IMG/VR virus record: IMGVR_UViG_3300005265_000023
Span: 1-31,664 of that record
From: a virus
Length of the DNA: 31,664 bases
Reading direction: 5' to 3' (one strand)
The notes beneath the pieces are model-generated. The model saw nothing but the letters and a program-made list of their open reading frames with translations. It did not search any database and was not told where the DNA came from. Position 1 is the stretch's first letter; each line of letters starts with the position of its first letter. Below, piece by piece: positions 361-29,644 of this stretch. The position numbers and the translations under genes are program-made.

Positions 361-660
361 TATATCTAAATGTTTCACTTTTTTATGCACAGTGTATTGA
401 TTATTAATGTTTTACCGTTCAAAAAACAAGCACAATTTTAGTAAACTACTTATTATCAACAAGTTATAACTACTTAATACTAAACAACTTAACCCTTATT
501 TAGAATCATTATAAATAACAAACTTTGCTGTATTTTAGTGCTTTTTTCACTTTTTACCATTTCAAAACCGATATATAACTTATACTACTTTAAACATAAT
601 ATTATTAAAGTTTGAAATTGTTAATAACTTGTTAATAACTTTATTTGTTTAAAAGTTGAT
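361..660. other. Candidate replication origin region
   Basis: This non-coding stretch lies directly before the replication gene. TTATGCACA at 383-391 matches the DnaA-box consensus TTATNCACA. TTATCAACA at 453-461 is one base off. Two perfect 11-bp direct repeats, ttgttaataac, abut at 618-639, and a 12-bp inverted repeat (580-591 with 673-684) brackets the promoter area. Repeats, DnaA-like boxes, high AT content and the adjacent polymerase-like gene together suggest an origin, but each signal alone is weak in such AT-rich DNA. Confidence 0.4.
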
Positions 661-678
661 CTATTAATATATAAAGTA
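644..678 (+). promoter_or_regulatory. Promoter of the replication operon
   Basis: TTAATATATAAAGTA at 664-678 is identical to the -10 type box before the baseplate, capsid and 29837 genes. Exactly 20 nt upstream lies TTTGTT, a variant of the TTTAGT seen at the late promoters. Unlike most of those, the start codon is about 180 nt downstream, leaving a long structured leader. Confidence 0.65.
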
Positions 679-699
679 GTATAATAAGTATTAGTAAAG

Positions 700-854
700 C
701 TTTTGGTTCGCTACCAAAAGAACTACTCTGGAACAAGTATAAATGTTATCCATCATTAAATGTGAAGTGAAATCTCTTCTAAATCTTGTCTTAAGAACTT
801 CACATTTAAGGATTAATAACTAACTATTTAGAAGAGGTTAAAAAATAAGACAAG
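700..854 (+). promoter_or_regulatory. Structured leader RNA of the replication gene
   Basis: Four complementary pairings are visible. (1) CTTTTGGT at 700-707 pairs with ACCAAAAG at 713-720 around a 5-nt loop. (2) A perfect 13-bp stem joins 756-768 and 797-809. Its 28-nt loop contains two segments complementary to downstream sequence: (3) CTCTTCTAAAT (774-784) with ATTTAGAAGAG (826-836), and (4) CTTGTCTTA (785-793) with TAAGACAAG (846-854). The last ends two bases before the ATG at 857. Pairings 3 and 4 cross, so they form a pseudoknot or are alternatives. This suggests control of translation or antisense-type copy control, which is inference. Confidence 0.7.
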
Positions 855-856
855 TA

Positions 857-2281
857 ATGAAATTTAAAATTACTGCATTCATAAAAGATGCAATTGATAA
901 AATAACTCTTCCTAAGAATTTATATATAATACCAATTTATAAACTCATACATTTAATAAACATTAAAACATCAACGCAAATTATACCATCTGATTATGTT
1001 AATATACATAGTAAAGATTTGGCTAAATTATTCGGCAAGAATAAAGTTAAAAAATACATTAACTTATTGTTAGAAAATAATATAATTGAAGTTGAAATAA
1101 ATCCAAACACAGGGAAACAAACATATTTAAATGACCATAGAGCCAAAGGGTATCGTATATCACCAACATTATTTCTTAATAAGACCTTTGATGATTTATC
1201 GATATATTCAAATGTTACTATTAAAGATGAAACATTCAAAAAAGATATTAAGAAAAAATTTAAAAGACCGACAACAAGAGAATTAAGATATATTTATGAT
1301 ATTCTAAAATCAAAAACATTTATTGTAGATATTAAATCTGCATATAATTGGATTAAAACTGAATTACTTAATGGTGAAATAACATTAGTTAAAGCCGTCC
1401 ATTATAAAGGACAGATTGATAATTTACATAAAAAACTTATATATTGTAAAAAAGCTAAAATTAAAACAGATAATGATGGTAATATTTTGGAAGATAATGA
1501 TAGGATTTATCACAACTTTATTTTATTAAAGAGTGAACTTAGACAGTTTTGTTCAATTAATGGTGATCGATTAGTTGGTATAGATTTAAAAAGTAGTCAA
1601 CCATATATTTTAGCTTCATTATTAGTATTAGAACAACCTACAAATAAAGGCTTTATTAAGTTTTACGATGCAGTTACTAAACACGATATTTATAGCTATT
1701 TGATAATTATTAATAAACTTAAACTTTTAAATAAAACCCCCAAAGAATATAGACGTATTATTAAAGACCAATTTATGAGATTATTCTTTTCATCAAATAA
1801 AGGTCAGTTATATTATTCACCTGATAAAAATATAACAGAAATTATTGATAATATGAGAGTTTTACCTGGAATGAGTAAAGAAGAGGTGATTAAAATTAAT
1901 AGAAACAAAGTATTATTTACTAAAGAAAGATTATTCTGGTTAAAGGATGGATTATTAGTCGATTTTAAATATGAATTTGAACGTACATTTCCAGAAGTTT
2001 ATGAATATATACAAAAATATAAAACAAAACAAATAAGAAAAAATCCAAACAGTAAAGGACATCTAGCATTAAAGCTAACTAAAATAGAAAGTAGCTTATT
2101 TTTACCAGTTATTAAGTCACTCAATAAAGATAACTCTAGTAATGATTATAAAATTTATGCTATTAGCGGTCACGATGCAATTTATACGACAGAAAATAAT
2201 GCTGATTGGGTATTATCTGATTTAAAAATACATTTCGAAAATAAAGGATATATAAACGCAAAATTTAATATAGAAAAATAA
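857..2281 (+). CDS. Replication protein with family-A polymerase-like palm motifs
   Basis: 474 aa, the only large replication-type protein in the window. Residues 45-110 look like a winged-helix initiator domain (helix-rich, ending in a YRI strand). From about residue 217 it follows the layout of a family-A polymerase palm. Motif-A-like VGIDLKSSQPYIL at 240-252 has candidate metal ligand D243. A motif-B-like helix around K304-F311 ends in FSSNKG. Motif-C-like SGHDAIYT at 437-444 has H439 and D440. Compact proteins of this shape occur in Bacteroidota phages and plasmids, usually annotated as hypothetical. No 3'-5' exonuclease, helicase or primase domain is recognisable. I infer a self-contained replicase or initiator. 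It heads the operon behind the structured leader, with 7 nt to the next gene. Alternative: a non-catalytic initiator that merely resembles a palm fold. Confidence 0.6.
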   Translation: MKFKITAFIKDAIDKITLPKNLYIIPIYKLIHLINIKTSTQIIPSDYVNIHSKDLAKLFGKNKVKKYINLLLENNIIEVEINPNTGKQTYLNDHRAKGYRISPTLFLNKTFDDLSIYSNVTIKDETFKKDIKKKFKRPTTRELRYIYDILKSKTFIVDIKSAYNWIKTELLNGEITLVKAVHYKGQIDNLHKKLIYCKKAKIKTDNDGNILEDNDRIYHNFILLKSELRQFCSINGDRLVGIDLKSSQPYILASLLVLEQPTNKGFIKFYDAVTKHDIYSYLIIINKLKLLNKTPKEYRRIIKDQFMRLFFSSNKGQLYYSPDKNITEIIDNMRVLPGMSKEEVIKINRNKVLFTKERLFWLKDGLLVDFKYEFERTFPEVYEYIQKYKTKQIRKNPNSKGHLALKLTKIESSLFLPVIKSLNKDNSSNDYKIYAISGHDAIYTTENNADWVLSDLKIHFENKGYINAKFNIEK

Positions 2282-4274: not shown

Positions 4275-4814
4275 ATGAAATACAACAAAAACAATATAAA
4301 TGATTTAGGATTACAATTTTTCAATACAAGAAATGAAATAGACTTTAATAATTTATATATTGAAGTGAAGCAATATTATGAAGGTTTACTAACCTTATAT
4401 ATAGACAAAAACAGTGATATATTTGATGATGTGATATCTATATCTATAACTAAAATATATAAAAAAATACATCAATACAATAATACATTTAAATTTACTA
4501 CTTGGATATTTACTATATTAGTTAGAACAGCTTTAGTAGAATTGAATAAACGTAATAAAGTTGATAATACAAGTTTAGATATAGATATAAATAGCAATAA
4601 CATAGAATACGATAATACTTATGATGAAATGTTAAAATATGCTAATACATTACACGGAGATTATAAATTAATAGCAATTAATATATTAAAAAATAATATG
4701 TATGATTATAAACATATGTTAATATTAAAAATATCACATCCAGTATATATTCGTAAAAAAAAATATGTTTTAGATAAACTTTTAAAATATTATAATCATT
4801 TAAACTTTATTTAG
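4275..4814 (+). CDS. Phage sigma-70-family (ECF-like) sigma factor
   Basis: 179 aa. Residues 48-65 (DIFDDVISISITKIYKKI) match sigma region 2.1-2.2, which binds the beta-prime clamp. KFTTWIFTILVRTALVEL at 73-90, followed by NKR, matches regions 2.3-2.4, the -10 melting and recognition helix with its conserved FxTW and IxxRxA pattern. The C-terminal 60 residues form a helical, lysine-rich tail; region 4 is only weakly recognisable. I infer that it redirects host RNA polymerase to the TTTAGT-N14-TTAATATATAAAG promoters. No such promoter precedes it, but its stop codon lies inside the -35 element of the baseplate promoter directly downstream. That arrangement fits a middle gene that turns on late genes. 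Confidence 0.75.
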   Translation: MKYNKNNINDLGLQFFNTRNEIDFNNLYIEVKQYYEGLLTLYIDKNSDIFDDVISISITKIYKKIHQYNNTFKFTTWIFTILVRTALVELNKRNKVDNTSLDIDINSNNIEYDNTYDEMLKYANTLHGDYKLIAINILKNNMYDYKHMLILKISHPVYIRKKKYVLDKLLKYYNHLNFI

Positions 4815-8721: not shown

Positions 8722-9135
8722 ATGATATTATTAGATACAATCCAGCCAGATATATTATCTACATTGGCACAATATGGAATTCTAGGCATATTTAGTATGA
8801 TTATGATTATTATTATAAGGTACCAAGATAATACTAATAAACAACAACAAAAAGTGTTAATTGATAGCTTTAAAGAACAAAAAGATCATTTAATAAAAGA
8901 CAATTCTATTATTGATAATGAAAAGAAAGAACTTAATGCTAAGTTTATAAATCATTTACAGGATACTGAACATAAATTGGTAAGTATAATATCTGAAAAT
9001 ACAGACGCATTTAAACGGATTGCTTTATCAAACGATAATATAAACCGATCAATTGGAAAGCTGATAGATAGATTATCTGAAAACAGTAATAGTAATAAAG
9101 AATTAAACAATAATATATTAAAAATAATAAAATAA
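8722..9135 (+). CDS. Membrane-anchored coiled-coil protein, possible holin
   Basis: 137 aa. One strong membrane segment spans about residues 15-33 (YGILGIFSMIMIIIIRY), then a long charged helix rich in Lys, Glu, Asn and Gln (35-137) reads like a coiled coil. This 'one TM plus coiled coil' layout occurs in BhlA/UviB-type holin-like proteins and is the only holin candidate in the window. Against that, it lies in the baseplate operon, 2 nt before the J-like gene, about 21 kb from the NlpC/P60 gene. It could instead be a virion protein that inserts in the host membrane. Confidence 0.45.
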   Translation: MILLDTIQPDILSTLAQYGILGIFSMIMIIIIRYQDNTNKQQQKVLIDSFKEQKDHLIKDNSIIDNEKKELNAKFINHLQDTEHKLVSIISENTDAFKRIALSNDNINRSIGKLIDRLSENSNSNKELNNNILKIIK

Positions 9136-17229: not shown

Positions 17230-18420
17230 ATGAGTAATATCATTACTAAAACATTAAATAAGTATTTTAATAAAGATGTTAAAAAAGCTAAAAAAATAAC
17301 TTCTGAAATAATTGAACGCCAAAACTATCGTATAAGAGAATCAATAGCATCTTGGAGATATGCTCTAAGCAAAGGTGAATCTTTTGATGATAGAGATAGA
17401 CGTGATTTATTTAGAATTTATAATGAAATATTATTAGATTCACATCTTAAAGGTATTATGGATTTACGTAAAGAGAAACTTTTAGGATATACATTTGATA
17501 TAATAGACGAATCTGGTGAAAAAGATGAACTATTAACTAATACTGTATTTAAATCTCAATGGTTTTATGATTTTCTTGATATTAGTATAGAATCTATGTA
17601 TTATGGATTTTCATTAATACAACTTGATGGAATTTATAAAAATAATATATCATCAGTTACCAATATAAAAAGAGAAAATGTAATAATTGAAACAGGTGAA
17701 TATGTTAAAGATACACAAAATTATCTAGACAGAAATTCTTATCTACCTAAACCAATTTATAAATGGTTAGTAGAAGTATTTAAAGATAGAAATGATTTAG
17801 GTTTATTAAGTGGAATAGTTCCATTAGTATTATGGAAACGTAATGCTGAACAAGCTTGGTCTGAATATTCGGAAATATTCGGTATGCCTGTTGTAATTGC
17901 AAAAACAACATCAAATGTAGCAGAAGATCGTGAACGTTTAGAGAATTTTGTTAAAGATCTTGGTAAATCTGCTTGGGCTGTATTAGATCAAAATGAAGAG
18001 ATTGAATTTATAGATTCTAATAGAAGCGATGTATCTAATATTTATAATGAACTTATTACATTAATGAATAAAGAGATGTCTAAAATTATTCTTGGTGCTA
18101 CAATGATTACTGATGATGGTTCTAGTTATAGTCAATCTGAAACACATAATAGACAATTAAATGCTAAAACTAAATCTGATTTACGTAGAATAGAGTTCTT
18201 AGTAAATGACGTATTGATCCCTAAATTACGAGAATTAGGGATTATTAATAAAAATGTTAAATTTAGATTTGATGATAGTGAGATATTAACACTTGATGAA
18301 CAATCTATTATAGATGAACGTCTTAATAATATGTATCCACTCGACAAAATATATTTAGAAGATAAATATAGAGTTAAATTCACTGAAATAACAGCACCTA
18401 TTAATGAAGAAAATGTTTAA
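17230..18420 (+). CDS. Portal protein, DUF935 / Mu gp29-like
   Basis: 396 aa. The helical stem and clip region has DRRDLFRIYNEILLDSHLKG (about 58-77), then RKEKLLGYTFDI. A conserved SLIQ/YYGFS core and GIVPLVLWKRNAEQAWSEYS (about 196-215) precede the family hallmark FGMPVVIAKT (about 217-226). KEMSKIILGATMITDD and SQSETHNRQL follow near 284-310, as in DUF935 portals. The portal forms the dodecameric DNA channel. Its last 17 nt overlap the next gene. Confidence 0.85.
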   Translation: MSNIITKTLNKYFNKDVKKAKKITSEIIERQNYRIRESIASWRYALSKGESFDDRDRRDLFRIYNEILLDSHLKGIMDLRKEKLLGYTFDIIDESGEKDELLTNTVFKSQWFYDFLDISIESMYYGFSLIQLDGIYKNNISSVTNIKRENVIIETGEYVKDTQNYLDRNSYLPKPIYKWLVEVFKDRNDLGLLSGIVPLVLWKRNAEQAWSEYSEIFGMPVVIAKTTSNVAEDRERLENFVKDLGKSAWAVLDQNEEIEFIDSNRSDVSNIYNELITLMNKEMSKIILGATMITDDGSSYSQSETHNRQLNAKTKSDLRRIEFLVNDVLIPKLRELGIINKNVKFRFDDSEILTLDEQSIIDERLNNMYPLDKIYLEDKYRVKFTEITAPINEENV

Positions 18421-18793: not shown

Positions 18794-19354
18794 ATGTATA
18801 AATATATATTTCTTGCATTTCAATATTTTACTAAAGATATTGAAGGATTAAAGTATTTTAATTTATATAATGATCAGTATAATAATAGTAAAGCGGATTC
18901 TATTAATTATCCAGCTATATTAGTTGAATTTGGTTTTAGTGATGCAGAACAGTATCCGAATAAAATACAAATGTTTGATATGACACTAACACTACATTTA
19001 GCCACTGATATTTATAACAACTTTAAAACAGGTGATATACAGCAAATTAAAGCATTAGAGCATTTAGATTTATTAACTGATTTATATAAGGCGTTAGAAA
19101 ACAAGTCTAGTGATGATTTACCAAATGAATTACAATCAGAGTTTTTTAATATTGGTCATATTCATCGTAAATCAATAGAAATGATATCTAATTATAATGC
19201 CGTTAAAGTAACAAAAAACGCATTTATATTTAGATTTACAGATGCAAGTGCATCACCTGTATATGATAAAACATATGCTGATATTGAATTACATACTAAT
19301 ATCGGTAATGTAGAACAAGAAAAGATCACATTAATTGTGAATCCTAATAAATAA
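18794..19354 (+). CDS. Tail terminator, gp37-like
   Basis: 186 aa. An N-terminal helix (MYKYIFLAFQYF), then YPAILVEFGFSDAEQYPN (about 37-54) and strands around MFDMTLTLHLATDI (about 58-71) fit the DUF1834/gp37-like tail terminators of Bacteroidota Mu-like modules. These are small alpha/beta proteins that cap the tube. Position just after the morphogenesis gene (3-nt gap) and before the protease agrees. Confidence 0.6.
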   Translation: MYKYIFLAFQYFTKDIEGLKYFNLYNDQYNNSKADSINYPAILVEFGFSDAEQYPNKIQMFDMTLTLHLATDIYNNFKTGDIQQIKALEHLDLLTDLYKALENKSSDDLPNELQSEFFNIGHIHRKSIEMISNYNAVKVTKNAFIFRFTDASASPVYDKTYADIELHTNIGNVEQEKITLIVNPNK

Positions 19355-28882: not shown

Positions 28883-29319
28883 TTATATTTTGCGTCTTTA
28901 TGATCTAATAAAAATACTTTTTTTGATACTTTTTTACCTGAATTATGGAATCCTGATGCAGTAGTTTCATTCATTAATCGCCAAACAGGGTTACACGGTT
29001 TTGTTGTAGTAAGATTCCATATTAATATTGTATTGTCTTTCGGAAAATAGTTTATATAAAATATCACAATTGGTTTACCTTTAGATTGAAGTTTATCATA
29101 CTTATTTATCATTGCTTTATATTTCGAAACTTCTAAGATCCAATCAAATGTTGTATGTGTAAAATCTCTTCTAATTTTAAATTCGCCGATGACAATTTTG
29201 TTTTCATATTCTATTTCTAGATCTAATCTATTGAATCTAGTTGTTAGTGCATTTTTAGAGAACAGTTTTGTTAATATTTCGTGTTCTACTTTTTCATAAA
29301 TGTTAATATCGTTGTTCAT
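28867..29319 (-). CDS. PD-(D/E)XK-like nuclease
   Basis: 150 aa. RFNRLDLEIEYENKIVIGEF (28-47) followed by KIR gives a candidate metal site D33...E46-x-K48, and a downstream helix has VSKYKAMINKY (64-74). That is the core of small PD-(D/E)XK enzymes, in which an acidic residue, an E-x-K strand and a following helix surround the DNA. It could be a junction resolvase, a repair or recombination nuclease, or a defence/counter-defence factor. The gene is monocistronic, minus-strand and convergent with the late operon. A weak promoter (TTTAGA, then TATATA run) lies upstream near 29357-29330. Confidence 0.55.
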   Translation of the reverse strand: MNNDINIYEKVEHEILTKLFSKNALTTRFNRLDLEIEYENKIVIGEFKIRRDFTHTTFDWILEVSKYKAMINKYDKLQSKGKPIVIFYINYFPKDNTILIWNLTTTKPCNPVWRLMNETTASGFHNSGKKVSKKVFLLDHKDAKYKIQWI

Positions 29320-29644
29320 TTAAATATATTGTTTATTATATATATATATATATCTAAAATGTGAAAGCCAATATGAGCATTTTTATTTACTTTAAGTATA
29401 AATACCGCAATATAATTAATTTAAAAAATGAAAATCGATCTTTATTTAATTATCTTAAATCCTTATTAATAAGATTTAGGACATCATTGAATATTAATTT
29501 TTTTTATTTTTCATTTTTCAATTAATTTATTTTTTTTATTTAATCTTTTTATAACTATTTTTTATAATATTGAACGCACTAAAAATTTAAAAATAAAGTT
29601 TAAAAAAGAAAAAAGGAGAAAAAAAAAAGAAAAACATTCCTCGC
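29320..29644. other. AT-rich non-coding spacer
   Basis: No gene seen. It contains an (AT) run at 29336-29352, the probable promoter of the minus-strand nuclease gene, an imperfect palindrome at 29456-29478 (taaat ... attta), poly-T and poly-A tracts, and an A/G-rich segment (29605-29637) leading into the repeats that follow. Confidence 0.5.

Follow-up and report, generated by a model that had tools for sequence, protein, structure and literature searches.

The leader of rep, a polymerase-like replication gene of a contractile-tailed phage, contains a 13-bp hairpin whose loop carries two adjoining segments, each perfectly complementary to its own downstream target, and the second target abuts the start codon. 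This feature is real and not a product of chance. We give a rough probability of one half to the reading that the leader is a cis-acting translational switch of the rep mRNA, with one loop pairing (B) as the off state and the other (A) as the on state. The window, meaning the whole stretch analysed, is IMG/VR record IMGVR_UViG_3300005265_000023, which comprises 31,664 bases and is classed as linear.

Anatomy and rarity of the rep leader

The main hairpin, S1, joins TTAAATGTGAAGT (756-768) to ACTTCACATTTAA (797-809) over 13 bp and encloses a 28-nt loop (769-796). Within this loop, CTCTTCTAAAT (774-784) matches ATTTAGAAGAG (826-836) in 11 perfect base pairs, forming pairing A, and CTTGTCTTA (785-793) matches TAAGACAAG (846-854) in nine, forming pairing B. 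The rep ATG lies at 857, and the B target (B') thus occupies -11 to -3 relative to the start codon. The positions that the first-pass annotation had given for the hairpin, the loop and both complementarities were all exact on recheck, and S1, A and B are the three longest perfect helices within 691-860. With one G-U pair, the A helix lengthens to 14 pairs (771-784/826-839, -14.9 kcal/mol), while the S1 arms lengthen to 24 nt with 88% complementarity (745-768/797-820). Loop segments A and B directly adjoin each other on the same strand, and A' and B' follow in crossing order; the two pairings, as had been noticed earlier, cross each other, and both also cross S1. The features are:

656-685, plus strand: candidate rep promoter, TTGATC-18-TATAAT, with an implied transcription start at ~691
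700-720, plus strand: small 5' hairpin (700-707/713-720, 8 bp) at the start of the inferred leader
756-768, plus strand: 5' arm of S1 (extended, 745-768)
774-784, plus strand: loop segment A (extended, 771-784), complementary to 826-836 (826-839 with one G-U)
785-793, plus strand: loop segment B, complementary to 846-854
797-809, plus strand: 3' arm of S1 (extended, 797-820)
826-839, plus strand: target A' (826-836 perfect, 837-839 with one G-U), whose pairing would leave the start region free
846-854, plus strand: target B', whose pairing would cover the ribosome entry region
857-2281, plus strand: rep, 474 aa, divergent family-A polymerase-like by motifs, model and Foldseek

The hairpin at 700-720 has no U-tract and is therefore not terminator-like. 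The candidate promoter at 656-685 agrees with the consensus at 10 of 12 positions and is weak, the region holding 19 such matches against 22.2 expected from shuffles; alternatively, a Bacteroidota-type promoter, TTG followed by TAACTTTA at 636 or TTTATTTG at 640, each with one mismatch, would place the start at ~650. No copies of the A' or B' targets were found elsewhere in the genome, and the complements of the loop that do occur elsewhere (9 nt near the start at 8722 and 8 nt near 18794) are taken as chance.

The original suspicion that such complementarity is hard to explain by chance proved justified, as none of 4,000 dinucleotide shuffles gave the 13/11/9 arrangement and even a weaker 10/8/7 arrangement appeared in just two of 4,000 dinucleotide shuffles of 691-860. 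Rough extrapolation from the per-base pairing probability yields ~3e-8 per leader, or 5e-6 when corrected for the whole window, and the leader ranks first of 1,575 windows when the same score is slid along the genome. Flavobacterium phage FPSV-S1, taken as a natural control, has one higher-scoring place, at 29246-29363 between two divergent genes, and inverted repeats in the control regions of such phages are therefore not unique. The place in FPSV-S1 contains a perfect 21-bp inverted repeat, GGCAAAGATATAATTAAATTT (29273-29293/29343-29363), with TATAAT in each orientation, and looks like a pair of divergent promoters or operators.

It is very unlikely that the repeats have no function and arose from replication template switching or by chance. 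Template switching near an origin can make perfect inverted repeats, and FPSV-S1 provides an example of such repeats in related phages, but one event produces collinear repeats, and to reach the order A,B...A',B' two or more independent events would be required in addition to the hairpin; the shuffles and the extrapolation exclude chance on its own. A single inverted duplication of A'-B' would put B before A in the loop, whereas the actual order is A then B, and a separate origin is therefore needed for each pairing.

The rep product and its phage

The first-pass annotation had called the gene behind the leader a replication gene, a claim borne out by motifs and by AlphaFold and Foldseek, which together point to a divergent family-A polymerase fold. 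The family alignment has near-invariant positions at R216, D243-x-K-x-S-Q-P, R299, K303, Q408/E411 and H439-D440, which we take to be the layout of motifs A, B and C of family-A polymerases, with motif A at D243-x-K-x-S-Q-P, motif B at R299..K303 and motif C at H439-D440. The AlphaFold model is of medium confidence (mean pLDDT 67.7, pTM 0.67), and its best PDB matches by Foldseek are Pol I enzymes, at a probability of 1.00 and an E-value of 1.2e-5 with low TM-scores (≤0.41). The product thus combines the motif A Asp, the motif B Arg/Lys and the motif C His-Asp with a palm fold, while no exonuclease domain was recognised in it and it has no match in Pfam, PHROG or NCBIfam. On these grounds, replication gene is a fair name for what would encode a putative DNA or RNA polymerase. 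It is the sole recognisable replication-enzyme gene in the 31.7-kb record, where no other polymerase was recognised.

No homologues of rep were found by exact 8-mers in viral and genome contigs or by tblastn in phages and plasmids. Degenerate DNA patterns around the D-L-K-S-S-Q-P motif, in turn, uncovered a wide family. Its members lie in viral contigs, some of which are several hundred kilobases long, and in genome contigs that carry the labels Flavobacteria, Flavobacterium, Lishizhenia and Chryseobacterium; relatives above ~30% protein identity over a long stretch were absent from the searched collections. The family shares the signature YGRxHTNFTxLK...R...D-I/L-K-N/S-SQP ... HDS, is spread over large Bacteroidota-type phages and Flavobacteria genome contigs, mostly carries no Pfam or PHROG name, and in such breadth is perhaps undescribed. 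By sequence, it is possibly related to divPolA2 (PMC11348598), whose members, like the rep product, are small family-A-like polymerases in which no exonuclease domain is recognised. The remote profile similarity between the two is marginal (hhalign probability 36%), and divPolA2 is found beside a regular DNA polymerase (PMC11348598), whereas the rep record has no other recognised polymerase.

The genes run rightward, from 857 to 28818. The structural genes are those of a contractile-tailed phage, with capsid and terminase present, and a Mu-type portal gene lies at 17230-18420. The best annotated matches of the portal, at 28-32% identity, are mostly to Winoviridae phages of Flavobacterium; the terminase, used as a query for the nearest phage relatives, found none. 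The host is probably a Flavobacterium-like bacterium; the replication genes of the portal-nearest, Winoviridae-like Flavobacterium phages differ from the rep described here. Between the early and the structural genes, 4275-4814 encodes a small protein with a match to sigma-70 region 2 alone (ECF-like), possibly a sigma factor that the phage supplies for its late genes.

Initiation, folding and the proposed switch

In Bacteroidota, initiation is tuned by how the mRNA folds near the start codon and by the presence of A at -3 and -6 (PMC6847099). The phage conforms to this pattern in its SD-less, A-rich starts: a Shine-Dalgarno 4-mer was found at none of the 32 starts checked, and the upstream regions are A-rich at all of them. 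The rep start departs from its neighbours, with 3 G+C in -11..-3 against a mean of 0.9, the second highest of the 32; it also has G at -3 and C at -6, positions at which A is found in 22 of the 32 genes. These atypical letters are those that the B pairing requires, as expected if the stretch were held for pairing, and B-B' is the longest non-low-complexity complement of any start region within the 150 nt upstream. Because the B pairing covers the start region of an SD-less gene, structure should matter at the rep start.

The alternative states that the earlier reading had suggested find support in three competing folds within ~3 kcal/mol of one another, since constrained folding of 691-900 gives -40.1 kcal/mol for S1, -38.9 for A and -37.3 for B. 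Moving the 3' end from 854 to 896 makes the minimum-energy fold switch back and forth between S1 and A. Among unconstrained nested folds of 691-900, S1 has a probability of 0.93, A of 0.07 and B of 0.002, with 840-852 largely open, and the B state would therefore need either a pseudoknot on S1 or a stabilising trigger. With usual pseudoknot penalties, S1 plus B comes to -35.4 to -30.4 against a nested minimum of -34.2, and S1 plus A to -32.5 to -27.5, somewhat above that minimum; these rough pseudoknot energies show no clear win over the nested folds. A weak hairpin can also form between the start codon itself and 869-874. By geometric reasoning rather than computation, A could pair on S1 only with the basal extension of that hairpin (745-755/810-820) open, because no more than five bases separate 820 from 826, whereas pairing B has no such requirement. 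On the same geometric, uncomputed grounds, A and B should be mutually exclusive, because the linker between their targets, 9 nt long or 6 nt if the wobble extension is counted, would need to reach along a 20-bp helix.

From this anatomy we infer control of initiation; RNA-level action, the assignment of on and off, the co-transcriptional order and the trigger, as set out here, we likewise infer. S1 would form first during transcription and present both loop segments. A' (826-839), transcribed next, would pair with loop segment A, and the start region (846-860) would then be single-stranded and rep translated. If A were unengaged, B' (846-854) would pair with loop segment B and block ribosome entry; in a nested alternative to this off state, S1 would open and B-B' would close a long stem-loop, blocking entry as well. 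By analogy with T4 gene 43, autogenous binding by free polymerase would be a first guess for the trigger. The full version of this proposal, namely a three-helix exclusive RNA switch in which one loop with two adjoining segments, one neutral and one covering the start, controls a small family-A polymerase in an SD-less Bacteroidota phage and is possibly polymerase-bound, is put forward tentatively, at odds well short of even.

The same repeats might instead act in the DNA, as protein-binding sites or a hairpin-type origin feature whose presence in the mRNA is incidental, which we regard as somewhat unlikely. Bases 1-856 are without a long ORF and have a G+C content of 20.7%, and the region 1-700 resembles a control or origin region. 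Three iteron-like 20-nt copies of TGTTCAAGCC(AC/GT)ATATTAAA lie upstream at an exact 65-bp spacing (91-110, 156-175 and 221-240) in the AT-rich, non-coding left end, where none are expected in shuffles, and are possible origin or repressor sites by their sequence. In addition, an inverted pair, TTATACTACTTTA/TAAAGTAGTATAA, occurs at 580-592/672-684, its right copy overlapping the candidate -10 box, and the two copies may represent divergent promoters or paired operator sites. A role in DNA is further favoured by the 21-bp inverted repeat between divergent genes in the relative FPSV-S1 and by the strand symmetry of the complementarity, as the minus strand folds equally well. Fold-energy z-scores are modestly unusual on both strands (-1.8 and -2.4 on the plus strand, -2.0 on the minus strand); being similar, they do not separate an RNA from a DNA role, and the overall z-score is not in itself evidence for a structured RNA. 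Against a purely DNA-level element, three helices in crossing order, two of them sharing one loop, would be unusual for an operator or an origin, B' lies next to the start codon and, as a weak point, the A helix gains its G-U pair on the mRNA strand only.

At the far left end, the minus strand has a terminator-like hairpin at 8-25, AGGCTTGGTAATGAGCCT followed by T7, for a leftward transcript, which makes a leftward non-coding RNA or a gene cut by the record end a candidate; the minus strand of the first 857 bases has no ORF of at least 60 aa.

Relation to known replication leaders

The leader would work like known replication-leader switches, judging by analogy, and cannot be filed as a member of any of them. 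The ColIb-P9, IncB and IncL-M repZ-repA leaders likewise have a large hairpin in the rep leader with a loop complementary to sequence adjoining the rep start, and they have mutually exclusive folds, as predicted for the leader described here. In ColIb-P9 the pseudoknot is an activating structure that requires both translation of a leader peptide and an antisense RNA. For the I-complex plasmids, PMC10724649 confirms the antisense RNA and stem-loop I and cites papers on the pseudoknot switch. The present leader shares with the I-complex a hairpin loop complementary to bases next to the rep start, and no Rfam sequence or covariance-model homology to that group was found. The loop has two long pairing segments, whereas the ColIb-P9 type has one short segment; its leader ORF has a poor start context and may go untranslated, an antisense RNA is a candidate, and the rep product is polymerase-like and starts without an SD.

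An antisense RNA of the plasmid type (IncIalpha/IncB or R1), in which a counter-transcript over 756-809 would bind the S1 loop and prevent or mimic the loop-start pairing, is distinctly unlikely. The layout resembles that of ColIb-P9 repZ, where the loop of stem-loop I pairs near the rep start, and TAATTTTA at 872, which has one mismatch to the Bacteroidota type and a TTG upstream, is a leftward promoter candidate from which an RNA would begin at ~858. The same scan, however, gave six such candidates in ~2 kb over both strands, or about one every 330 nt, 810-1000 holds no sigma-70-type leftward promoter, no terminator for such an RNA was found, and the leader ORF at 743-823, which would have to take the RepY/Tap role, has a start context worse than that of 88% of the other ATGs in the genome.

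Attenuation by a leader peptide, with translation of this 26-codon ORF deciding the fold, is the least credible explanation. The ORF covers the same stretch as the extended stem (745-820) and ends just before A', but its start context scores -13.1 against a mean of +6.4 for the phage genes, and a 26-codon ORF is not rare by chance. The start context, which is equalled or bettered by 88% of the other ATGs, disfavours a leader peptide.

Returning to the switch read through its own mRNA, the operators of T4 gene 43 (DNA polymerase) and gene 32 share with it a structured leader upstream of a phage replication gene, which here also overlaps the rep start region. In contrast, the T4 gene 32 pseudoknot is compact and lies 67 nt upstream, whereas in the window the pairing itself would cover the start, and the polymerase here is of family A while that of T4 gene 43 is of family B. 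In the T4 operators the gene product binds its own leader and represses translation, and the rep product may do likewise.

The leader is represented by one sequence only. A blastn search of 600-2400 against phages and plasmids returned no leader homologue, the exact S1-arm pattern with a variable loop had no match in viral contigs, and Rfam gave no match at the gathering score and chance matches only in a permissive search. Among 47 leaders of distant rep relatives (~20-30% identity), none has a comparable structure at the start codon; six reach the level of 0 of 20 shuffles, against ~2 expected, and none of these does so at the start codon. At 20-30% identity these relatives are too distant for the absence to be a fair refutation, because even T4-type phages differ in the presence of such operators (PMC3014915).

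What is known of cis-acting RNA control in phage replication genes comes mainly from T4-type phages, and the gene 32 pseudoknot of T4 is maybe the sole viral pseudoknot in translation autoregulation (PMC3014915). The gene behind the present leader belongs to a broad polymerase-like family, and no Pfam, PHROG or NCBIfam name covers the window protein. If the leader is a switch, it would show how initiation can be gated in a Bacteroidota phage that has no Shine-Dalgarno site to hide, and it would offer a compact, easily mutated test case.
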